Of a stretch of 64,000 bases of DNA, positions 7,975-18,862 are shown one piece after another. Each line of letters begins with the position of its first letter. Position 1 is the stretch's first letter. The position numbers were made by a program, and so were the translations under genes. Source of the stretch: an uncultured bacterium (GTDB taxonomy: Bacteria; Bacillota; Clostridia; Oscillospirales; Oscillospiraceae); the NCBI GenBank assembly GCA_948469375.1, contig CAOKLO010000010.1:1-64000 (forward strand), read 5' to 3'. Under the pieces are notes generated by a model, which saw nothing but the letters and a program-made list of their open reading frames with translations, searched no databases and was not told the origin of the DNA.

Positions 7975-8751
7975 CTATTTATCCGGCTGAAAATAGGCCT
8001 TTCCATCAGCAATGGTCAGATCCAAAAGGCCGCTTTGTCCCTCTTGAATTTTTCCCTCCTCCAGACCGCGGGTCAGCGCACTCTGGGCCAGCCGAATGAA
8101 GTACTCATACTCTCCGCCTCGGGGCAGCTTCAAGCGGTAGATGTCATAGTTCAGCGTCATGGAGGCCGCAGCGGTGCAGTCCAGCGATGTGCACTGCTCC
8201 AGCATTCCATGGCTCTCCAGCACGCCCAGCAGCTCCTTCACATATTCCAGGGTGAGCGTCTCCTCCTCTGCGGTCTGAACCATGCCTCCGGCATAGGGCC
8301 CCACCGCCGTCATACCTGTGATTTGGATCGTGCGGATGGTGCCGTTATCCTTTTCCAACAGCTTCCCCTGAGAGGAGATGAGCCAGCGCCCCTCGGCGCT
8401 GTCCACCGACGCCGACGCTACCCGCTCCGTCACCCGGATTACCAGGCCGTCGGGATACACCCGCCGGATGGTCACCCCTTCCACATAGGGCAGCTGGGCC
8501 CGGATGGAGGCCGACACCCGGCTGGCGGGCAGAGCAATGAGGTTGTCGCCGGTCTTCACACCGGAGGCGTCAATGATCTCCTGGGCGGTGTAGCGCACAT
8601 TGCCTTCCACCTCAATGGAATTCACCCGGAAAAAGACCACGCAGGCCACAATGATCGCCACGGCCACAAGCAGAATGGACAGCACCTTATAAAGGCCGCT
8701 GAACCGGCCTCGCCGCCGGCTTGGCCGGTTGTGTCTGCGCTGTCGTGCCAT
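7975..8751 (-). CDS. ftsQ: Cell division protein FtsQ/DivIB
   Basis: This 258-residue bitopic divisome protein bridges early and late division proteins. It has a basic cytoplasmic N-terminus, one transmembrane helix (LSILLVAVAIIVACVVFF, about residues 23-40) and an outer POTRA domain (VNSIEVEGNVRYTAQEIIDA) followed by the FtsQ beta region (PDGLVIRVTERVASA). The ATG at 8751 is chosen because CGGAG lies nine bases upstream; the ATG at 8760 would touch that site. It sits between murA and ftsZ as in many Firmicutes. Confidence 0.92.
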   Translation of the reverse strand: MARQRRHNRPSRRRGRFSGLYKVLSILLVAVAIIVACVVFFRVNSIEVEGNVRYTAQEIIDASGVKTGDNLIALPASRVSASIRAQLPYVEGVTIRRVYPDGLVIRVTERVASASVDSAEGRWLISSQGKLLEKDNGTIRTIQITGMTAVGPYAGGMVQTAEEETLTLEYVKELLGVLESHGMLEQCTSLDCTAAASMTLNYDIYRLKLPRGGEYEYFIRLAQSALTRGLEEGKIQEGQSGLLDLTIADGKAYFQPDK

Positions 8752-8807
8752 GGGTATCATCTCCGTTCTGGTCTGTCTGGACACCGCCGGAACTGGGCGG
8801 CTGTTTC

Positions 8808-10064
8808 CTATTCCTCTCTCCGCTCCACATCTGCTCCCAAGGTCCGAAGCATATCCTCCAAGCCCTCGTAGCCCCGGTCAATGTGATTCAGGCCGGACAG
8901 CACGGTGGCGCCCTCCGCCCCCAGGGCCGCCGCGGCCAGCGCTCCCCCGCCCCGCAGGTCCGACGCCTCCACCCGGGCGCCGTGGAGACGTTCCACACCC
9001 CGCACCAGGGCCACGCGGCCTTCGGTAGTGATGTCCGCCCCCATACGGATGAGCTCTGGAACGTGGCGGTAACGGCTGTCGAACATGGTCTCCACAAACA
9101 GCGTACACCCTTGGGAGGCCGCCAGCGCCGCCATCACCGGAGCCTGCGCATCGGTGGGAAACCCGGGATAGGGCGCAGTCCGGATGGTAGGCACGCCTTT
9201 GAGGGGCGTCTCCCGGTCCCGCTCCAGCTCCACATGCTCCAGCTTGCTCTCCACCCGGCACCCCGCCTGATGGAATACAGACATGACGGTGGCCAGGTGC
9301 CGCCAGTCCACACCCCGCAGGCGGACCCTGCCTCCGGCGGCGGCGGTGGCAGACAGCAGGGTTGCCGCCACAATGCGGTCCCCCATGACGGAAAATTCCC
9401 CGCCGGACAGCTCCCGGCCTCCCTCCACAATGATGGTGGAGCTTCCCGCTCCCCGAACATGAGCTCCAAGGCTGTTGAGAAAATTCTGCAAATCACCGAT
9501 TTCCGGCTCCCGGGCCGCATTGGTAATTGTGGTAATCTTTGACGCCCCCACAGCGCACAGCATGGCGTTTTCCGTAGCGCCTACGCTGGGCATGGACAGC
9601 TGGACCTCACCTCCCAGGGGCCGTCCCTGGCAATGGATGCCCCGGTCCTCGCTGACCTCGCACCCCATGGCCCGAATGGCGCTGAGGTGCAGGTCGATGG
9701 GCCGGGGACCCAGCTCACATCCACCGGGATAGGTCAGATGAGCCTCCCCCATCCGGGCCAGCAGCGGCCCCAGAAAAATGATGGACGAGCGCATGGCCCG
9801 CATCTGTTCTTCCGATATCGTGCTTCCCAAAGCCCCCGTTGGGTCTACAGTAATCGTGTGCCTCTCCTGCTGCGCACGGCAGCCCAGGCGCCGCAGAATG
9901 CCCAGCGCGGCGTCCACATCGGTGAGCCGCGGGCAGTTGCGCAGCGTCACCGTTCCCCGGGCCAACAAGCAGGCCGCAAGTATAGGCAGCACACTGTTTT
10001 TTGCCCCGTGGACGGTCAACTCACCCTCTAGCGGCCTTCCGCCCCGAAGATACATCACACTCAT
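8808..10064 (-). CDS. murA: UDP-N-acetylglucosamine 1-carboxyvinyltransferase
   Basis: MurA transfers enolpyruvate from PEP to UDP-GlcNAc, the first committed step of peptidoglycan precursor synthesis and the target of fosfomycin. The 418-residue protein has HGAKNSVLP with Lys22 and Asn23 at the canonical positions, and the active-site loop PGGCELGPRPIDLH with Cys116, equivalent to Cys115 of E. coli. The Cys predicts fosfomycin binding, in contrast to Asp-type MurA. The ATG at 10064 follows GGGGAGG. That ribosome site is itself inside an imperfect hairpin (10068-10118). Confidence 0.96.
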   Translation of the reverse strand: MSVMYLRGGRPLEGELTVHGAKNSVLPILAACLLARGTVTLRNCPRLTDVDAALGILRRLGCRAQQERHTITVDPTGALGSTISEEQMRAMRSSIIFLGPLLARMGEAHLTYPGGCELGPRPIDLHLSAIRAMGCEVSEDRGIHCQGRPLGGEVQLSMPSVGATENAMLCAVGASKITTITNAAREPEIGDLQNFLNSLGAHVRGAGSSTIIVEGGRELSGGEFSVMGDRIVAATLLSATAAAGGRVRLRGVDWRHLATVMSVFHQAGCRVESKLEHVELERDRETPLKGVPTIRTAPYPGFPTDAQAPVMAALAASQGCTLFVETMFDSRYRHVPELIRMGADITTEGRVALVRGVERLHGARVEASDLRGGGALAAAALGAEGATVLSGLNHIDRGYEGLEDMLRTLGADVERREE

Positions 10065-10067
10065 GGC

Positions 10068-10118
10068 AAAGCCTCCCCATAGAAAGAAATCTCGATTCAT
10101 TCTATGCGGAGGGGCTTT
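10068..10118 (-). promoter_or_regulatory. Hairpin covering the murA ribosome-binding site
   Basis: On the minus strand AAAGCCCCTCCGCATAGAA can pair with TTCTATGGGGAGGCTTT across a 15-base loop, with a small bulge and one mismatch. The downstream arm contains the GGGGAGG site of murA, so folding would hide it. There is no T-run, so a terminator role is unlikely. Confidence 0.5.
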
Positions 10119-10124
10119 CGCCGG

Positions 10125-11237
10125 TTATTTTATGAGCGCAATGAGGTTTTCGTAGATATCCTGTGCCGCATAGGGAGACGCCAGCTCCTTCAGCGCCCTG
10201 CCCATAGCCGCCCGACGGCCTCCGTCGGACAAAAGCTCCAGCGCCGCCTTGTACAGGCCCTCGCCGGTGCAGTCCTTTTCCTCTATCAGCTCCACCCCGC
10301 CCCGGTCGGCCAGCACCTTGGCGTTCTTATATTGATGGTTTGCCGCCACAAAAGGCGACGGAACCAAAATGGCGGGCTTGCCCAGCGCGGTCAGCTCCCC
10401 GATGGTGGACGCGCCCGCCCGGCAGATCACCAGATCGGCGGCGGCCATCACCACCGGCATGTCGTCGATGTAGGGCCGCACCTCGCTGCCGGACACCGCC
10501 ACATTCCGCTTTTTCAGCTCTGCGGTCATGTCCTCATAGTCCCGTCCGGCGGCGTGGATGTAGTGAAACCGCCGCCCCTCTGCCGACCAGCGCTCCACCA
10601 AATCCACAGTGCGCTCGCTCATGTGCCCCGCTCCCTGGGACCCCCAGAAGGAGATAACCAGAGGCTGGCTGTCCAGCAGACCCAGCTTCAGCCGGGCCTG
10701 TTCCCGGTCCAGGGTGAAAAATTCGCCCCGGACGGGAGTCCCGGTGACGGCCACCTTTTTGGCGTCCTTGTAATACTCCGCCGCCTCGGGAAAGCCCACC
10801 ATCACCAGATTTACCTTGTTTGCCAGCGCCCGTGTGGTCAGCCCCGGGTAGGCGTTGGACTCGTGAATGGCACAGGGGATGTGCCGCTTTGCCGCCTCGT
10901 GGACGGCGGGATAAGAGGCGTAGCCCCCTGTGCCCACCACCAGATCGGGTTTAAACTTTTTAAGCACAGCTGCCGCCTCATGCTGGCCCACCGGAAGCTT
11001 GAACACGCTTTTCACATTATGGCGCAGATGGGTCCAGCTCCAGGTACGCTCGAAGGTGGACACCTTGACCGTCTCAATGGGGTAGCCCGCCTGGGTGACC
11101 AGCCGCTGCTCCATCCCCCGCTCCGCGCCCACGAACAAAATCTCGCAGCCGGCATGACGGACCTCAAACATCTGCGCCACAGCCAGGGCAGGATTCACAT
11201 GGCCTGCCGAGCCGCCGCAGGTAAATATCACTCTCAT
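10125..11237 (-). CDS. murG: UDP-GlcNAc:undecaprenyl-PP-MurNAc-pentapeptide transferase
   Basis: MurG adds GlcNAc to lipid I on the cytoplasmic face of the membrane to give lipid II. This 370-residue GT28 enzyme has the N-terminal glycine-rich loop TCGGSAGHVNPALA, the acceptor-side TGGYASYP and HESNAYPG, a middle SFWGSQGAGHMSE, and the nucleotide-sugar motif ICRAGASTIGELTALGKPAIL with PSPFVAANHQ. The ATG at 11237 has GTGAGGAC upstream; the longer frame to 11261 adds residues not typical of MurG. It lies between ftsW and murA. Confidence 0.97.
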   Translation of the reverse strand: MRVIFTCGGSAGHVNPALAVAQMFEVRHAGCEILFVGAERGMEQRLVTQAGYPIETVKVSTFERTWSWTHLRHNVKSVFKLPVGQHEAAAVLKKFKPDLVVGTGGYASYPAVHEAAKRHIPCAIHESNAYPGLTTRALANKVNLVMVGFPEAAEYYKDAKKVAVTGTPVRGEFFTLDREQARLKLGLLDSQPLVISFWGSQGAGHMSERTVDLVERWSAEGRRFHYIHAAGRDYEDMTAELKKRNVAVSGSEVRPYIDDMPVVMAAADLVICRAGASTIGELTALGKPAILVPSPFVAANHQYKNAKVLADRGGVELIEEKDCTGEGLYKAALELLSDGGRRAAMGRALKELASPYAAQDIYENLIALIK

Positions 11238-11250
11238 GCCGTCCTCACAT

Positions 11251-11383
11251 CGTCGAAGCAAAATCCGCTTGGCGACCTTTCCGCCTTTGGCAAAAACTGC
11301 GCACGCTCCCTTGCTTCTCCTCTCCCCACAAAGCCAAAGGCCGGCCTTGCAGGGCCCTTTGTTTGTCTCACAAACTTCATTCT
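11251..11383 (-). repeat. Intercistronic repeat, copy 2 (ftsW-murG)
   Basis: This non-coding stretch of about 130 bp resembles the one before ftsW (12650-12777). Both, read on the minus strand, have a G/C-rich inverted repeat around GGCTTTG, a purine-rich GGGGAGAGGAGAAGCAAGG-type segment and the shared end TTTGCTTCGACGA, which abuts the ribosome site of the next gene. Confidence 0.55.
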
Positions 11384-11402
11384 CTTACCTCCACCTTTCC
11401 TC

Positions 11403-12632
11403 CTATTCCGCCTTGGGCGCGGCAATCTGTCTTGATACACTGAGCACCATGCCCATCTCTGCCAATTGTATGGCCAGAGCCGTGCCTCCATAGCTGAAAA
11501 ACGGCAGCGAAATGCCGGTGGGCGGCAAAAATCCGGTGACCACGCCGATGTTAAAAAAGACCTGCATACCTGTCAGCGACGTGACGCCCACAATGAGCAA
11601 CGTACCAAACCGGTCCCGGGCATGGAGAGCCAGCCAAAAGCCCCGGATAATCAGCAGGGCAAACAGCGCTATGATAACGATGGCCCCGATCATGCCAAGC
11701 TCCTCGCAGACGATGGCAAAAATATAGTCGTTGTGCTCCTCGGGGAGAAACAGGTGCTTTTGCTGGCTGTTGCCCAATCCAACTCCCATAAGTCCGCCTG
11801 AGCCGATGGCAATTCGGCCCTGCCAGGGCTGATAGCCGCCGTTTCGCAAATCACTGAGGGGGTCCTGCCAGATTTGAATGCGCGCGGCCATATAATCTGT
11901 CTTGGTGATGATGAACCACAGCGCAACGCCCACCGCCGCTCCTCCAAGGGCAAACCAGCTCAGTGCGACGCCGGACGCGAACAGCACCGAGGCCGCCGCC
12001 ACTACCACTAGAATCATACAGGACATGTGCTTCTGCAATGCGATGATGCCCAACACCACCATCAGGATCAAGCCATAGGGAACCAGCTCCAGCAGGCCGA
12101 CGCGGTCTAAACGCGCCGCCATCCGGCCGGTAAAAGTTCGCTTACTCCACTTTCTTGGTAAGCCTACCTGGCCGCTTCGCTTGGATAGCCCGGCGGCAAA
12201 AAACATGATAATACCCACCTTGGCAATTTCTGAGGGCTGAAAACGGATACCGAAGAGATTGATCCACCGCTTCACGCCGCCGCCCGCTCTGCCCAGAGGA
12301 GTGAACACCACCAGCGCCATCAGCACAATGGACGCCCCCAGCACAAACACGGACATCCAACGGAAATGCTGGTAGTCAATTTTAGAGATGACGAACATGG
12401 CCGCCACGCCCAGCACTGCAAAGCCAAACTGCCGCTTGAAATAGTACAGCGGATCGCCTCCGGTGTTCACCGATGCGTCCAAATTGTACATGGCGGAGGC
12501 ATAAGAGGCCGACAGCACCATAATGAGGCCAATCGCGGTGAGCAGCATCACCAGCGCCAGAAAGGGCAGGTCAATGGGACCTCCAGCCAGCTGCTGTTCT
12601 ATGGTCAGGTCCCGTTTTGCTTTTCTGCCCAA
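11403..12632 (-). CDS. ftsW: SEDS peptidoglycan polymerase FtsW
   Basis: FtsW is the septal SEDS glycosyltransferase that polymerises lipid II together with a class B penicillin-binding protein. The 409-residue protein has about ten hydrophobic segments and conserved SEDS blocks such as GGVKRWINLFGIRFQPSE, PDLS-like WQDPLSDLRNGGYQPWQ with GSGGLMGVGLG, and the final LPPTGISLPFFSYGGTAL. The start is placed at the TTG at 12632, because AGGAGGGGAGG lies just upstream. The ATG at 12671 would put this site inside the gene and the extra residues do not resemble FtsW. The gene could be the SpoVE paralogue; sequence alone does not separate them here. Confidence 0.93.
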   Translation of the reverse strand: MGRKAKRDLTIEQQLAGGPIDLPFLALVMLLTAIGLIMVLSASYASAMYNLDASVNTGGDPLYYFKRQFGFAVLGVAAMFVISKIDYQHFRWMSVFVLGASIVLMALVVFTPLGRAGGGVKRWINLFGIRFQPSEIAKVGIIMFFAAGLSKRSGQVGLPRKWSKRTFTGRMAARLDRVGLLELVPYGLILMVVLGIIALQKHMSCMILVVVAAASVLFASGVALSWFALGGAAVGVALWFIITKTDYMAARIQIWQDPLSDLRNGGYQPWQGRIAIGSGGLMGVGLGNSQQKHLFLPEEHNDYIFAIVCEELGMIGAIVIIALFALLIIRGFWLALHARDRFGTLLIVGVTSLTGMQVFFNIGVVTGFLPPTGISLPFFSYGGTALAIQLAEMGMVLSVSRQIAAPKAE

Positions 12633-12649
12633 GGGCCTCCCCTCCTTTT

Positions 12650-12777
12650 CGTCGAAGCAAAGTCCGTTCAACTGTGCTTTCGCCCGCAGCGAAAATTTCG
12701 TTTGTTCCTTTACTTCCCTCTCTCCGCAAAGCCAAAAGGCGGCTTTGCGGGAGCCCCAGCTTTGACTCCCTGAATTC
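12650..12777 (-). repeat. Intercistronic repeat, copy 1 (mraY-ftsW)
   Basis: This non-coding stretch is similar to the copy between ftsW and murG. It contains an inverted repeat CCGCAAAGCC / GGCTTTGCGG at about 12725-12750 and ends (minus strand) with TTTGCTTCGACGA before the ftsW ribosome site. It sits where murD is usually found in related clusters. Confidence 0.55.
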
Positions 12778-12786
12778 TACCCGTAT

Positions 12787-13776
12787 TCAGATGGCGTATC
12801 TATACATCACGCCGACGAACGCCAGCAGACAGAACGCCACGGTGATTCCGGTAAAAGTAATCACAATGCGCACCTCGCTCCACCCACCCAGCTCCAAGTG
12901 ATGGTGCAGAGGCGCCATGCGGAAAATGCGCTTGCCGTGGGTGAGCTTGAAATAGCCCACCTGAATGATATCGCTCATGGTCTCAGCGATGTAGATGACA
13001 CCCACCGGCACCAGTACCAGCGGCGCATCCAGGGCAAAGGCCATGCCGCATACCGCGCCCCCCAGGAACAGGGACCCAGTGTCGCCCATAAACACCTTGG
13101 CGGGATGGAAGTTATACACCAGAAAGCCCAGCAATCCTCCCGCCAACGCCCCGGCGAAAATTCCCACCGAACCGTAGCTCCACCACTGAGACAGCACGGC
13201 GAAAAACACCGATACCGCCAGCGTCACCGACCCGGCCAGGCCGTCCAGGCCGTCGGTGAGATTCACCGCGTTGACGCAGCCCACCATGACAAAGGCGGCA
13301 AACACCATATACACCCCCCAGGGTAGCGGCACAGACGCGTTGACAAAGGGGATATACAGGTTGGGCGTCAGGTGGCGGCTCCACCGCAGCAGGGCCAGAA
13401 ACGCGATGGCCGCCGCCAGCTGGAGCAGGAACTTCCATCCGGCGGTGAGGCCGGTGTTCTCATGCTTGCGGATTTTGGCAAAGTCGTCCACAAAGCCGAT
13501 GGCTCCGCACACCAGGGCAAAGGCCAGCACAAACAGCGCCTGCCAGTTTCCCTCCAGCACGTCCCGCCAGCCAAGGCCCAGCACCACCGCAATCACCGCA
13601 GCGATGAACATGATGCCCCCCATAGTGGGAGTGCCCTCCTTGCTCTTGTGCCAGTTTGGGCCGATCTCCTTGATGGACTGGCCTGCGTGCAGGGCACGCA
13701 GGGCGGGAATCAAAAACCACCCTGCCACCGCCGAGATTACAAAGGCGACCGCCGCCGCCAGCAATATTTGTGTCAT
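12787..13776 (-). CDS. mraY: Phospho-N-acetylmuramoyl-pentapeptide-transferase
   Basis: MraY transfers phospho-MurNAc-pentapeptide from UDP to undecaprenyl phosphate, making lipid I. The 329-residue polytopic protein has the expected motifs: HKSKEGTPTMGG near residue 45, the Asp pair GAIGFVDDFAKI near residue 95, NLTDGLDGLAG near residue 170, FMGDTGSLFLGG near residue 230 and the MAPLHHHLELGGWSE loop near residue 285. About ten membrane segments are evident. It lies between a Mur-ligase-like relic and ftsW; no intact Mur ligase is adjacent. Confidence 0.98.
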   Translation of the reverse strand: MTQILLAAAVAFVISAVAGWFLIPALRALHAGQSIKEIGPNWHKSKEGTPTMGGIMFIAAVIAVVLGLGWRDVLEGNWQALFVLAFALVCGAIGFVDDFAKIRKHENTGLTAGWKFLLQLAAAIAFLALLRWSRHLTPNLYIPFVNASVPLPWGVYMVFAAFVMVGCVNAVNLTDGLDGLAGSVTLAVSVFFAVLSQWWSYGSVGIFAGALAGGLLGFLVYNFHPAKVFMGDTGSLFLGGAVCGMAFALDAPLVLVPVGVIYIAETMSDIIQVGYFKLTHGKRIFRMAPLHHHLELGGWSEVRIVITFTGITVAFCLLAFVGVMYRYAI

Positions 13777-13830
13777 AGCTTCTCCTCCACATTCTCTTTT
13801 GTATTCCCGTACTCTCTTCCCAATTCGCGC

Positions 13831-14373
13831 TCAACCGTTTAGTCTTGCCACCGCGTCGCCCAGCGGCACGCCCAGCGCCAGCGCTCCCGCCAGCGCCGCC
13901 AGATGGTCGTACAGCCTGGGCCTTCCGTTTGCGGGCACCCGCACCCGCATCAGCTCTCCCCGGGTGGTAAACGCTTCGAACTCCAGCCGTTCCCCCCGAA
14001 GCCGAACGTTCTTTGCAGTAAGGTCCGCCTGGGGCCTGCCGTCGGAATAGGCGTACACCGCCCCTGGCATGGCCCCGGCACAGCGCTGGCCCTCCGGGTC
14101 GTCCAGCCCCACCACGGTGACGCCGGACCGCTGGGACAGTGCCCACCGGGCTACAGCGCAGCCGCTGAGGGTCCTCCCGGCAGCGGGGTCAAAGTTCTCC
14201 ACCACCACCGCCCGGCAGTCCCCCTCATACAAGGCCGCCTGACAGGGAGTGAACTCCACTACTGGCCCGGGCAACAGCCTGCGCAACAGTCCGGCGGTGA
14301 GGGTCCCTCCTCGGCCAACCACGGCCACGGGCGCTTCTGCCCTGCCACTATTGGTGGTCTCCATATTCCACAT
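13831..14373 (-). CDS. Truncated Mur-ligase-like protein, probably inactive
   Basis: This 180-residue protein occupies the murE/murF position between spoVD and mraY. Its second half resembles the end of the Mur-ligase central domain: VVGLDDPEGQRCAGAM (compare the NxDDP motif), then VYAYSDGRPQADLTAKNVRL, then RPRLYDHLAALAGALALGV (compare the FNxxNxLAAxAxA helix). Near the N-terminus VAVVGRGGTLTAGLLRRLL looks like a worn P-loop, with the GTNGKTT lysine missing. The UDP-binding N-domain and the C-terminal ligase domain are absent, and intact ligases are about 450-500 residues. The frame is open with no internal stop, so it may be a retained non-catalytic protein rather than a fresh pseudogene. 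It overlaps the end of spoVD by 26 bp; the ATG at 14364 is an alternative start. Confidence 0.6.
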   Translation of the reverse strand: MWNMETTNSGRAEAPVAVVGRGGTLTAGLLRRLLPGPVVEFTPCQAALYEGDCRAVVVENFDPAAGRTLSGCAVARWALSQRSGVTVVGLDDPEGQRCAGAMPGAVYAYSDGRPQADLTAKNVRLRGERLEFEAFTTRGELMRVRVPANGRPRLYDHLAALAGALALGVPLGDAVARLNG

Positions 14374-16750
14374 TGGTCACAAATCTTACCTCCACCACAG
14401 TACCTGGGACTACCATCGTTCCTGCGTCCACCGACTGAGCAGCCATCACTACCGAGGGGTCGGTGTAATCCACCACACCGGTGGCCCGCATAAACAGCCC
14501 CTGGTCCTCCAACTTGACCTTGGCGGCTGTCGGACTCAGACCTGACAGATCCGGGGTCTCCACCTGAGCGTCCGGGGTCTCCTCCCCCAGATACAAAATG
14601 ACGTTGGACCCACCCGGGATGGACACACCGGATAAGGGCACCTGGTGGGTAACGATATTGCCTGTACCCACGGTGCGGCACTCGAACCCTGCCTCCTGGA
14701 TGTTGCTCTTAGCCACTGTCAGCTCTTTGCCTACCACGTAGGGCATAGGAGCGTCCGCCCCGGACAGGTCGCCGCTGTTGTATTGCTTCTCAATGCCCAT
14801 ATAGTCCAAAATGTTGGCAATGAGCGCCCCCGCCATAGGAGCGGTGATGTTTCCGCCGCTGATATAAGTGCCCGACGCAGTATAGTTGGATTTGGGCGCG
14901 GAACGCTTGGGCGTATCATACACAACCAGCACCAGCACTTGGGGATTCTCCACCGGAGCAAACCCCATAAACGAGCACATCACGTCGTCGTTGCTCGGAT
15001 CAATGGCCTTGATGGCAATGTTCTCCGACGTACCCGTCTTGCCGCCAATGCTGTAGCCACTCTGGGCAGCATTGTGGCCGGAGCCCGCCTTGTCGCTCAC
15101 CACCTGCTCCAGAATCCCCCGGACCTTATCGGAGGTGGACTCGCTGATGACCTGGCGTACCTCCTGGGTCTCGTGGTAAAACACCGTGTTGCCGTCTCCG
15201 TCACTGATGGTCTGTACCAGATAGGGCTGAAGCAGGTGCCCGCCGTTGATGACGGCCGCAAAGGCAGAGATCATCTGAAGGGGTGTGATGGCAAAGGTCT
15301 GACCGAAAGAAGCTGTAGCAACCGACTGCGCACCATAGGGACCCTTAAAGGTGTCCTCTGTCCAAAGCTGCCAATGGCCCTCCCCTGCCAGGTCGATGCC
15401 GGTGTAGTCCAGCAGGCCGAAGTCCTCAAAGTATTTCCACATGATATCCGGGCCCATCTCCTCCGCGATATCCATCAGGCCCACGTTGCAGGAGTTCATC
15501 ACCACATGGGTGAGGTCCTGGTCCTTGTGTCCGCTGGGCTTATGGCATTTGATGGTCCGGTCACCTACCACCTTGCCGCCACCGCAGTAAAACCGGCTGT
15601 CCATGGTGACGACGCCCTCCTCCAGCGCCATAGCCACCGTGATGGGCTTGAACACCGAACCTGGCTCATAGGCATCGGACAGGGCCCGGTTGCGCATCTG
15701 TTTGTCCCACGCTTCGTCCCATGCGGCGTCGACCTCCTCGCTGTCGTCTCCATGTTCCGCCGCCACCTGGTCAATCTGGGCTTGCAGCTCGTCGCTGAGG
15801 ATGCTGTTCCAATTATTGGGATCGAAATCCGGACTGCTGGCCATGGCCAGCACCGCCCCGGTTTGAGGGTTGATGGCCAGCCCAAACGCACCGTTCTGTA
15901 CGTCATAGGTTTCAATGCCCTCCGCCAAGGTCTGTTCCAGCATGGCTTGGACGCGCTCGTCGATGGTGAGGTAAATGTCGTAGCCGTTCTGGGCGTCAAA
16001 ATACATATCGTAGCCGGAGAGCATCTCCTGCCTCCAGCCGTTCACGGAGGTAACCACCCGGCCCAGCTCACCGGACAGCACATCCTCGTACCCCAGCTCA
16101 ATGCCCGCCTTGCCCACCATATTCTCACCGCTGGTTTTCGTCTGGCCCATATAGCCCAGGATGTGTGACCCTATGGAGGAAAAGGGATAGTACCGCTTGC
16201 TGGATGGAGTGAGGTAGAGCAGGTCGGAAATCTTATTCTCGCTGGTGAATTCCCGGATTTTCTCCGCGTCCTCCTCCTCCAACTCGTAGTACAGCACCTC
16301 ATAGCCGGAGTTGATGCGCTCAATGCGGGTCCAAAGCCGGTTCTCATCGTAGCCCAGCAGGTCCACGACACCGTCCACAATGGTCTTGCGCAGATCATAT
16401 AGGGCCTGCTCGTAGGCGGCAGTATCCTCATAGTCATCCTTATCAACCGCGCCGTACACGCCTATAGGTGACAGAATCAGTTTGTAGACCGTGGCCGACA
16501 TAGCCATGGCCCGGCCCTCCTTATCGTAAATAGTGCCCCGGTTTGCGGCCACAGATACGCTTTTTGTCTGCTGATTGGCGGCCCGCTCCTTCCAATCCTC
16601 GTGCTCCACGATTTGAAGCTTGTATAGCTGTGCAACCAGAGGCAGAAACACCCCCACTCCCAGCGCCACCATTAGGAAAATGGTACGCCGGAACAGGCTT
16701 CGGTTGCTTTTGCCGTCCGAACGGCGGGGTTTACGATTAGGGTCTTGCAT
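14348..16750 (-). CDS. spoVD: Class B penicillin-binding protein with PASTA domains (SpoVD/FtsI-like)
   Basis: This 800-residue transpeptidase cross-links peptidoglycan at the septum or in the spore cortex. It has one N-terminal transmembrane helix (TIFLMVALGVGVFLPLVAQL), a dimerisation domain (NRGTIYDKEGRAMAMS), and the catalytic motifs SVFK (in YEPGSVFKPITVAM), SCN (in MNSCNVGLMD) and KTG (in GGKTGTSENI). Two C-terminal PASTA repeats begin near PMPYVVGKELT and VETPDLSGLSP. PASTA domains in a dcw-encoded class B enzyme are typical of Firmicute SpoVD/PBP2B. The ATG at 16750 follows a GGGAG site. It would pair with FtsW and FtsL encoded nearby. Confidence 0.94.
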   Translation of the reverse strand: MQDPNRKPRRSDGKSNRSLFRRTIFLMVALGVGVFLPLVAQLYKLQIVEHEDWKERAANQQTKSVSVAANRGTIYDKEGRAMAMSATVYKLILSPIGVYGAVDKDDYEDTAAYEQALYDLRKTIVDGVVDLLGYDENRLWTRIERINSGYEVLYYELEEEDAEKIREFTSENKISDLLYLTPSSKRYYPFSSIGSHILGYMGQTKTSGENMVGKAGIELGYEDVLSGELGRVVTSVNGWRQEMLSGYDMYFDAQNGYDIYLTIDERVQAMLEQTLAEGIETYDVQNGAFGLAINPQTGAVLAMASSPDFDPNNWNSILSDELQAQIDQVAAEHGDDSEEVDAAWDEAWDKQMRNRALSDAYEPGSVFKPITVAMALEEGVVTMDSRFYCGGGKVVGDRTIKCHKPSGHKDQDLTHVVMNSCNVGLMDIAEEMGPDIMWKYFEDFGLLDYTGIDLAGEGHWQLWTEDTFKGPYGAQSVATASFGQTFAITPLQMISAFAAVINGGHLLQPYLVQTISDGDGNTVFYHETQEVRQVISESTSDKVRGILEQVVSDKAGSGHNAAQSGYSIGGKTGTSENIAIKAIDPSNDDVMCSFMGFAPVENPQVLVLVVYDTPKRSAPKSNYTASGTYISGGNITAPMAGALIANILDYMGIEKQYNSGDLSGADAPMPYVVGKELTVAKSNIQEAGFECRTVGTGNIVTHQVPLSGVSIPGGSNVILYLGEETPDAQVETPDLSGLSPTAAKVKLEDQGLFMRATGVVDYTDPSVVMAAQSVDAGTMVVPGTVVEVRFVTNVEYGDHQ

Positions 16751-16873
16751 AGGGCTTCGCTCCCGTTTCTTGGATTTCACAGGCGTTATGGGAGAGGGGC
16801 GCGGGGAACCCTGTGCGTTCCTCACGCCCCTCATGTCTCTCTATGGGTCAATGTATGTGCTGGGACAATCCTA

Positions 16874-17449
16874 TTATGACAGCAGGTCTGCAAAAAACCG
16901 TTCCGCCCTTTGAAGCAGACCGGACAGCCCCTCTCCTGCGCCGTCATAATACACCACGCTGTCCCCGCCGGACAGGTCCAGGTACACCGTTTGCCCCGCG
17001 CCGGGATGAATCATGCTGCCGTCGGACAACAGCTGTTTTTCAATGGCCTCCAGGTCGAACATCAACTCATATTTGGCCTGAAGGTTTCGGTTCTCGTCTT
17101 GAAGGTCGGCCAAAGTGGAGCGCAGCTCCACGATATCATGATTAGCCACCGCCAGTTGAGCGCTACTCACCACAAGCAGCAGAGCACAGGCCAGCACAAC
17201 AAACAACCCCACCACCGTAAAGGGTGCCACAGCTCCCTGCGGACGTACTTCGATGTTGGGACGGGCTGCCGGCCGTCTGCGGGGCCGGGACTGAGAACGC
17301 CGCCGGGGTTCTGGACGGCGGGCCGGCGCGGCGTTCATCCGCTCCCTCCGGGAGGGCGAACGGGCGGACTCCTGCTCGAACTCAGGCTGGTAGGCCGTGC
17401 TGCCCTCCGTCCGGTATCTTCTTGTATCACTCCTGCGCCGTGTCGCCAT
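16874..17449 (-). CDS. ftsL: FtsL-like septum formation protein
   Basis: This is a 191-residue bitopic protein. A long, very basic, Arg/Pro-rich cytoplasmic tail (about 75 residues) precedes one transmembrane helix (FTVVGLFVVLACALLLVVSS) and a short coiled coil (DIVELRSTLADLQDENRNLQ). This topology and its place between rsmH and spoVD identify it as FtsL/septum initiator-like, although FtsL sequences are poorly conserved. FtsL normally binds DivIC and DivIB to activate FtsW-PBP. The tail is longer than in B. subtilis FtsL. The start at 17449 follows GGAGGTGAATGCCCT. Confidence 0.75.
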   Translation of the reverse strand: MATRRRSDTRRYRTEGSTAYQPEFEQESARSPSRRERMNAAPARRPEPRRRSQSRPRRRPAARPNIEVRPQGAVAPFTVVGLFVVLACALLLVVSSAQLAVANHDIVELRSTLADLQDENRNLQAKYELMFDLEAIEKQLLSDGSMIHPGAGQTVYLDLSGGDSVVYYDGAGEGLSGLLQRAERFFADLLS

Positions 17450-17508
17450 AGGGCATTCACCTCCGTATATGGTCCATGCCCTACCATGTTGTCCGCAGGG
17501 TCAAGGGG

Positions 17509-18444
17509 TTACAGCTTCTCCGCTATCCGCAGCTTGGCGCTGCGCGCTCTCGGATTATCTTTTAATTCCGCTTCGCCCGCTGTGATGGGGCGTCTGCCCA
17601 CCAGCTTCATCTTTGGGGTTCTGCCGCACACACACACCGGGAAATCCGGCGGGCAGATACAGCCCTTGGCCCAGTCGGCATAGGCGGTCTTGACCAGACG
17701 GTCCTCCAGCGAGTGAAAGGAGATGACGGCCAGACGCCCGCCTGTGTTCAGCGCGTCCAGCGCGCCGCTCAGCAGCCGCTCCACCTCGCCCAGCTCATCG
17801 TTCACCGCAATGCGGATGGCCTGGAAGGATCGTTTCGCGGGGTGCTGCTTTTCTCGCTTGGCCTTGGCCGGCATAGCGCTTCGAATCAGCTCCGCCAGAC
17901 GGCCGGTGGTCTCAATGGGAGCCTTTTCCCGCTCCCGGACAATGGCAGAGGCAATAGGACCGGAATAGCGCTCCTCTCCGTACTGCCAAAGGATGCGTTT
18001 CAGCTCCTCCTGACTCCAGCCGTTCACCACATCCCTGGCTGTAAAGGGGGCAGATTGGTCCATGCGCATGTCCAGCGGAGCGTCCTGGAGATAGGAAAAC
18101 CCCCTGTTTCCGTCATCCAGCTGGGGGGAGGACACCCCCAGGTCGAACAGCATTCCGTCCACGCTGTCCACGCCCAGAGAGGCCAGAATCGACCGCAGAT
18201 CGCCAAAGTTCCCCCGAACCAGGGTCACCTTGTCCATGTACCCCTCCAATCGGACGGGCGCGGCCTCCAGCGCGGCCTTATCCCGGTCGATGGCAATGAG
18301 CCGTCCCGTGGTGAGCCGCCTGACGATCTCCAGCGAGTGTCCCGCCCGACCCAGAGTGCCGTCCACATAAATGCCGTCGGGCCGGATGTTCAAACCGTCC
18401 AGGCACTCCTTCAGGAGCACCGGCTTGTGTGTGTATTCCTCCAT
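17509..18444 (-). CDS. rsmH: 16S rRNA (cytosine1402-N4)-methyltransferase
   Basis: RsmH (MraW) uses SAM to methylate N4 of C1402 in the decoding centre of 16S rRNA. The 311-residue protein begins with HKPVLLKECLDGLNI and has the SAM-binding VDGTLGRAGHS, MLFDLGVSSPQLD, the RGFSYLQDAPLDMRMD block and the final VISFHSLEDRLVK segment. These are diagnostic of the family. It starts just after mraZ and is clearly in the same operon. Confidence 0.97.
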   Translation of the reverse strand: MEEYTHKPVLLKECLDGLNIRPDGIYVDGTLGRAGHSLEIVRRLTTGRLIAIDRDKAALEAAPVRLEGYMDKVTLVRGNFGDLRSILASLGVDSVDGMLFDLGVSSPQLDDGNRGFSYLQDAPLDMRMDQSAPFTARDVVNGWSQEELKRILWQYGEERYSGPIASAIVREREKAPIETTGRLAELIRSAMPAKAKREKQHPAKRSFQAIRIAVNDELGEVERLLSGALDALNTGGRLAVISFHSLEDRLVKTAYADWAKGCICPPDFPVCVCGRTPKMKLVGRRPITAGEAELKDNPRARSAKLRIAEKL

Positions 18445-18445
18445 A

Positions 18446-18862
18446 TCAAATCCCCAGGTTTTTCATCAGATTGGCGATGGTCTCCGGGTTGAGCTGCTGC
18501 TGAGTCTTGGCTCTCCAGTTGTCCGCGCTCCAGATCTGGGCCCGGTCGTTGTTGCCGGTGACCACCACATCCCGGTCGATTTTGGCATAGTCCTTCAGGT
18601 AGGAGGGAATTTGAAACCGCCACTGCTTGTCCGCCTCGCAAAGCTGGGCAGAGGCAAAAAACAGGTCCATAGCTGCGGCGTCCGTGGTGGACAGCTCGGA
18701 TACCCGTGCCCGCAGCTTGTCCCAGGTCTCCATGGGATAGAGGGTCAGGTTCTCTTTCACCCCCACCGCCAGATAGAAGGTAGAGCCCAGCTTGTCCCGC
18801 AGCTTGGAGGGTACGATGAGACGGCCGGCGTTGTCAATGCTGTGCTCGTAGGTGCCGGTCAT
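18446..18862 (-). CDS. mraZ: Transcriptional regulator MraZ
   Basis: MraZ is an AbrB-fold DNA-binding protein that regulates the dcw operon it heads. The 138-residue protein starts MTGTYEHSIDNAGRLIVPSKLRDKLG and holds a second copy of the fold around GNNDRAQIWSADNWRAK. In studied bacteria MraZ binds short direct repeats between promoter and gene. A matching array of repeated five-base boxes lies in the leader here (18871-18916). The ATG at 18862 has GGAGGG upstream. Confidence 0.95.
   Translation of the reverse strand: MTGTYEHSIDNAGRLIVPSKLRDKLGSTFYLAVGVKENLTLYPMETWDKLRARVSELSTTDAAAMDLFFASAQLCEADKQWRFQIPSYLKDYAKIDRDVVVTGNNDRAQIWSADNWRAKTQQQLNPETIANLMKNLGI

Follow-up and report, generated by a model that had tools for sequence, protein, structure and literature searches.

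What has become of murE in the division and cell wall (dcw) cluster of an uncultured Oscillospiraceae bacterium (assembly GCA_948469375.1, contig CAOKLO010000010.1), where an open frame of only 180 codons stands between spoVD and mraY? We analysed positions 1 to 64,000 of this contig (the window), for which an initial annotation made from the letters alone had proposed that this frame encodes a Mur-ligase-derived protein without catalytic parts, possibly kept as a non-enzymatic scaffold or regulator. The frame lies where it was described, and we place it on the minus strand, which the annotation had not given. Judged by its sequence, its product, which we call mini-MurE, is a pseudoenzyme derived from the resident dcw MurE, and it is kept by purifying selection.

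The three pieces by which a Mur-ligase middle domain had been recognized, DDPEGQR, DLTAKNVRL and LAALAGALALGV, are all found in the frame, and the reported absence of the GKT lysine was borne out, as the P-loop position reads GRGGTLT. In the alignment, and in a pairwise comparison with the full-length protein of the sister genus, active dcw MurE carries VTGTNGKTTTTYLLK where mini-MurE carries VAVVGRGGTLTAGLLRRLLPG. Searched with the pattern GxxGK[TS], none of the short forms compared from g1 and g14 (g and G numbers are our handles for groups and genomes), 14 in all, shows a P-loop, while 27 of the 28 intact dcw MurEs match the pattern, the 28th (G045) having GTSGKT. The P-loop lysine is missing in all 11 aligned mini forms, and so is the Asn of the YNAL motif, presumably an adenine contact, which is present in 10/10 active rows. 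The alignments also agree with the annotation that both terminal domains are gone: mini-MurE begins at the P-loop strand, lacks the N-terminal domain that binds UDP-MurNAc (uridine diphosphate N-acetylmuramic acid), and lacks the C-terminal ligase domain together with DYAH and DNPR, so that it has 180 residues versus about 485 in dcw MurE. This length is counted from the first ATG; the actual start could be the second in-frame ATG at 14364, which gives 177 residues. The DYAH/DFAH pattern is an imperfect marker, since three intact dcw MurEs out of the 28 lack it as well, two of them having DYAV instead.

Searches with the single sequence gave weak matches to Mur ligases: Pfam Mur_ligase_M reached E=0.0017 and 18.8 bits, below its curated cut-off of 24, NCBIfam murF reached E=7.5e-4, the best Protein Data Bank sequence match had E=0.0016, and at E<=0.01 the Pfam model of the middle domain picks up only one of the 41 members of the mini-MurE family. 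Profile-profile comparison by hhalign was firm, with E=3.5e-23 for dcw MurE, 2.6e-7 for MurF and 9.7e-5 for the second MurE, by which we mean a full-length MurE encoded outside the dcw cluster, distinct from MurE2, a separate MurE-like ligase. Among 38 full-length rows, dcw MurE is the best match of 14/14 short proteins tested, and in the trees the short and degenerate forms nest within dcw MurE, the second MurEs branching outside that clade and the short rows forming long branches. Across 19 further genera of the family, the gene before mraY is a full-length murE in 16, a compact MurE in one (G047), a short form in one (G054) and a gene cut by the contig end in one (G059). The initial annotation had taken the slot as the site of murE/murF; the displaced gene is murE, and murF comes after it in some of these genera. 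Thus, the nearest Mur ligase of mini-MurE is dcw MurE, and it occupies the dcw murE slot, which makes the proposed Mur-ligase derivation specific. Three other origins were considered. Descent from MurF, suggested by the best single-sequence matches, was rejected on the much greater closeness to dcw MurE and on the presence of murE in the slot; descent from the genome's own second MurE is excluded by the best matches, the trees and the profile comparison; and an unrelated Rossmann protein or chance similarity is excluded by the profiles, synteny, intermediates and fold.

Degenerate forms in the same slot outside the genus form a graded size series of 490, 463, 377, 354, 326, about 220 and about 180 residues; they were taken from one search, among the matches listed (265 of the 400 genomes gave one or more), hence at least these genera carry them. 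The mildest form, in G106 (490 residues), keeps GKT with DYAH replaced and is, by its sequence, possibly still active; that of G170 (463 residues) keeps GKT and has lost DYAH and DNPR; those of G126 and G353 (377 residues) have lost the N-domain and keep GKT; and those of G212 and G271 (354-355 residues) and G135 (326 residues) lack both the N-domain and the P-loop lysine. The shortest are found in g14 (217-223 residues) and g119 (174-192 residues). The full-length G170 copy is 37% identical to the window protein over 191 columns, including the P-loop region. The full-length or N-truncated degenerate dcw MurEs of g88, g79, g123 and g59 (L188-L192, L196 and L197) represent intermediates.

A five-gene dcw tree, built by a quick search from genes linked to the mini-MurE frame and including the ftsW-type and murG-type genes, recovers two sister pairs, g123 (G170) with the window genus and g79 with g14 (both with 100 in the Shimodaira-Hasegawa-like approximate likelihood ratio test). 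Forcing g1 and g14 together is 313.7 log-likelihood (lnL) units worse (approximately unbiased test, p-AU 0.0002). As this clade is rejected and the sister G170 is still full-length, reduction to the middle-domain core occurred at least twice independently. One origin for all short forms, which the gene tree joins but which are long branches there, is rejected by the dcw tree. The rejection is only weak for a common origin of every degenerate state (lnL 25.0 lower, p-AU 0.028); initial inactivation may thus have happened once or several times. Moreover, g119 is placed beside the intact G060 and G055 with support 90 in the dcw-gene tree, and may be a third reduction.

The structure predicted by AlphaFold from the 41 short sequences (predicted local distance difference test, pLDDT, 87.5; predicted template modelling score, pTM, 0.85) has a confident Mur-ligase middle-domain fold, and by Foldseek and VIA-align it matches the middle domains of MurE, MurC and MurF across almost the whole chain, so that the lack of a structural match, which would have refuted the initial annotation, did not occur. 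The top Foldseek match by E-value is the plastid polymerase chain 8r6s_Q, and MurT/GatD (9sqj) ranks under MurE, MurC and MurF. Within the Mur middle domain, the best-conserved half of the chain would comprise the last Rossmann strands, an antiparallel sheet of three strands (ADLTAKN-x-RL, EFEA, RVRVP) and the helices that close the domain. The model of the g119 protein (pLDDT 87.6), whose alignment (A6) also held full-length rows, has the same structural matches. A reverse case is seen in G047, in which a 410-residue MurE directly before mraY (L122 70-1302) carries GTKGKT, DYAH and DNPR and seems to be without the ADLTAKN sheet that mini-MurEs keep. It is very improbable that the middle domain gained another enzymatic activity: in its favour, YSDGRPQADLTAKNV is strictly kept and Cys72, Glu59 and Asp91 are invariant in the 41 rows, but active dcw MurEs carry the kept motif too, within a structural sheet, a catalytic motif is recognizable nowhere in mini-MurE, and the family is reached by the Pfam middle-domain model in the single member mentioned above.

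The gene is present in 40 of the 42 genomes of the genus, counting the window genome; the copy in G036 ends at a contig end and the G032 assembly lacks mraY, and neither was taken as a loss. All 39 complete copies are open (173-208 residues from the first start), although the genus has diverged to about 57-60% identity. The ratio of nonsynonymous to synonymous substitution rates (dN/dS) of the core has a median of 0.36 with a 5-95% range of 0.17-0.52 (627 of 741 pairs with dS 0.05-1), and lies at 0.08-0.43 across the 40 closest pairs listed; these values come from a counting method without a likelihood-ratio test, they are based on non-independent pairs, and dS may be skewed by base composition. 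The mini-MurE gene is thus kept by purifying selection, and the broken, drifting frame that would have spoken against the initial annotation was not seen in the relatives. Mini-MurE is, on these grounds, a homologue without catalytic residues that is conserved by selection (dN/dS by counting), as expected of a pseudoenzyme. Counted from the first start, the frame overlaps spoVD in 35/39 copies, and in 37/39 no more than 57 bases separate it from mraY, an arrangement that would suit a role of the RNA rather than the protein, with the short frame as a spacer for translational coupling between spoVD and mraY. We consider this improbable, as the conservation is at the amino-acid level (dN/dS <1 and a third-position excess), the predicted fold is confident, and in one genome, G013, mraY comes directly after spoVD, with 29 bases and no gene between them.

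From its motifs, the ligase chemistry appears to be done by the divergent second MurE, which carries GTKGKT, DYAH, and DNPR or DDPR/DDSR. It was found in 32/32 genus genomes searched (one partial, G038) and in 12/12 genomes of other genera with a degenerate dcw MurE (among the matches listed), that is, in 44/44 genomes whose dcw MurE is degenerate, short or lost; 25 of these 44 were placed by the tree and the other 19 by their identity of 58-80% with the copy in the window genome, and G418, which has a second MurE, was left out because its cluster content lies outside the analysis. Conversely, no second MurE was found in the 27 searched genomes with an intact dcw MurE, a set that leaves out G059, G047 and G087, and for the last seven of which the mraY-adjacent slot was checked separately. 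The extra matches in genomes with intact dcw MurE are MurE2 in eight cases (six by tree, two by BLAST), and one further 59-bit match (G072) stands outside this count. The window genome encodes, outside the window's wall cluster, complete MurC, MurD, MurE, MurE2, MurF and MurT. Its second MurE (G000:C1:154611-157411) comes after a gene that we take by eye to be YmdB-like, outside any wall cluster. MurE2 (G000:C1:45055-46410, L003 949-2472; also L224 565-2943) has EEDSGEED where MurE has DNPR, and a number of relatives encode it as a fusion with an amino-acid-kinase domain (in G156, E=1.7e-44 to Pfam AA_kinase), presumably acetylglutamate-kinase-like, as judged by eye.

By these results, the full-length MurE that occupies the spoVD-mraY slot of most related genera was reduced to its middle domain, with the catalytic motifs lost; a divergent second MurE with a full motif set is encoded elsewhere; the remnant is held in place by purifying selection; and at least one further lineage reached the same kind of core independently. 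We propose that the second MurE took over catalysis and now adds diaminopimelate, leaving the ligase parts of the resident MurE free to decay in separate lineages that each kept one domain. Selection on a folded core that has lost the catalytic parts suggests a binding role, a protein being the favoured partner. What survives of the MurE middle domain may therefore be a surface that binds without catalysis, and mini-MurE would serve the cytoplasmic precursor complex (MraY, MurG and the Mur ligases) as a small subunit, either adaptor or regulatory, an assignment to which we give about an even chance. By extension, the dcw MurE middle domain in Oscillospiraceae may have a second, non-catalytic job in the wall, of which mini-MurE would be the isolated moonlighting part; the balance for and against this proposal is likewise roughly level.

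Several results weigh against such an adaptor. The gene is absent from G013, and mini-MurE is therefore not indispensable. Its median dN/dS (0.359) exceeds that of MraY (0.215; 606 of 741 pairs usable for both). Mirror-tree analyses of 9 and then 27 genomes grouped mini-MurE with MraY and MurG, and FtsL, SpoVD and FtsW separately, but the unrelated control UvrC joined the former group (partial r 0.49 with mini-MurE, 0.45 with MraY and 0.52 with MurG), so the signal is non-specific. Branch-wise rate correlations with mini-MurE (44 of 51 branches used) were 0.51 for SpoVD, 0.47 for MraY, 0.10 for MurG, -0.52 for MurF and 0.11 for the second MurE; MurG thus dropped out and MurF was negative, and the values of SpoVD and MraY may stem from their being flanking genes rather than from function. 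An unexpected value of 0.46 between RsmH and the second MurE (0.56 without the longest branch) indicates that this table is noisy. Because UvrC joined the group and the branch-wise test dropped MurG, we claim no MraY/MurG partnership; neither of the two co-evolution tests singled out a partner. Of the initial annotation's suggestions, the Mur-ligase derivation, the loss of catalytic parts and the retention by selection stand, and the scaffold or regulator role is a candidate. The FtsW of G013 is relatively fast (distance ratio 1.62).

The same loss in G013, the graded series of shrinking forms and the dN/dS above that of MraY would also fit a slowly dying relic without present function. This is quite improbable in view of the 39 unbroken copies despite the divergence within the genus, the low dN/dS in the closest pairs, the well-folded predicted core and the independent retention of that core in another lineage. 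The main rival to an adaptor is a regulator that binds UDP-MurNAc-peptide, nucleotide or the second MurE and tunes the activity of the latter. Regulation of active enzymes by pseudoenzyme paralogues is a general pattern, the complete Mur middle-domain fold is retained, and a second MurE is present in every tested genome with a mini form. Still, regulation of this kind seems rather unlikely, since the P-loop lysine and the YNAL Asn (the presumed adenine contact) are gone from the mini forms, the UDP-binding N-domain is lost, the branch-wise correlation with the second MurE is low, and G013 has a second MurE without mini-MurE.

The coordinates of mini-MurE and its neighbours are given in Table 1. 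The wall cluster (window 8000-18862) contains none of murC, murD, murE and murF; all four ligases are encoded on other contigs.

Table 1. Features of the mini-MurE locus (window positions unless a locus handle is given)
Feature	Position	Strand	Remarks
mini-MurE, MurE-derived, middle domain only, putatively non-catalytic	13831..14373	minus	180 residues from first ATG
Degenerate P-loop strand and next helix of mini-MurE (VAVVGRGGTLTAGLLRRLLPG)	14262..14331 (approximate)	minus	alignments
Best-conserved half of mini-MurE, LDDPEG...YSDGRPQADLTAKNVRL...LEFEA...RVRVP...LYDHLAALAGALALGVPL	13837..14130 (approximate)	minus	hhalign, alignment, model
spoVD-type class B penicillin-binding protein, upstream neighbour	14348..16834	minus	26-base overlap with mini-MurE frame
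mraY, downstream neighbour	12787..13776	minus	54 bases past mini-MurE end
ftsW-type gene, same cluster, downstream	11403..12671	minus	in species tree; name presumed from similarity of its relatives, not from a family search
murG-type gene	10125..11261	minus	in species tree; presumed name, not from a family search
G013 cluster, sole genus member with clean loss of the mini gene	L126 1221-4705		

A gut bacterium and its relatives thus carry a small, apparently non-catalytic MurE remnant in the middle of the wall cluster, which suggests a testable second job of MurE. Mur ligases have been studied as enzymes and drug targets, and a structural role in complexes has often been proposed but is hard to separate from catalysis. 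Here evolution seems to have split the two, with an active MurE elsewhere, a conserved non-catalytic domain at the old site and intermediates in relatives, so that a non-catalytic function of MurE becomes directly testable. The results also define a family of proteins of about 180 residues that Pfam nearly always misses, and caution that a murE-like gene in a wall cluster is not necessarily the working MurE. No published account of a MurE pseudoenzyme or a truncated dcw Mur ligase was found in the literature searched, most subscription journals lying outside it.

With dcw MurE, the UDP-MurNAc-tripeptide synthetase of related Oscillospiraceae, mini-MurE shares the middle-domain fold, the spoVD-mraY locus and descent, and differs by the lost domains, motifs and length described above. 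MurT is a member of the Mur-ligase family without a typical N-domain, like mini-MurE; however, MurT binds nucleotide and acts with GatD, and a full MurT is encoded elsewhere in the window genome. Assemblies of MurE and MurF scaffolded by MurG, described in Bordetella and Thermotoga (PMC6420597), represent the type of precursor complex where a Mur domain without catalysis might work, but the ligases in them are active, and the available text of that paper reports no pseudoenzyme subunit. In plants, PAP11/MurE-like is a subunit of the plastid RNA polymerase that touches PAP1 (PMC9456514), and moss PpMurE2 reportedly did not behave as a ligase in preliminary in vitro work (PMC9434261), so that there, too, a MurE has been kept for a non-wall or non-ligase role. 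Unlike mini-MurE, which consists of the middle domain only and lies in a wall cluster, the plant proteins have the full length or more, retain DNPR-like motifs and serve transcription; they are the closest precedent for a MurE that has departed from ligation.
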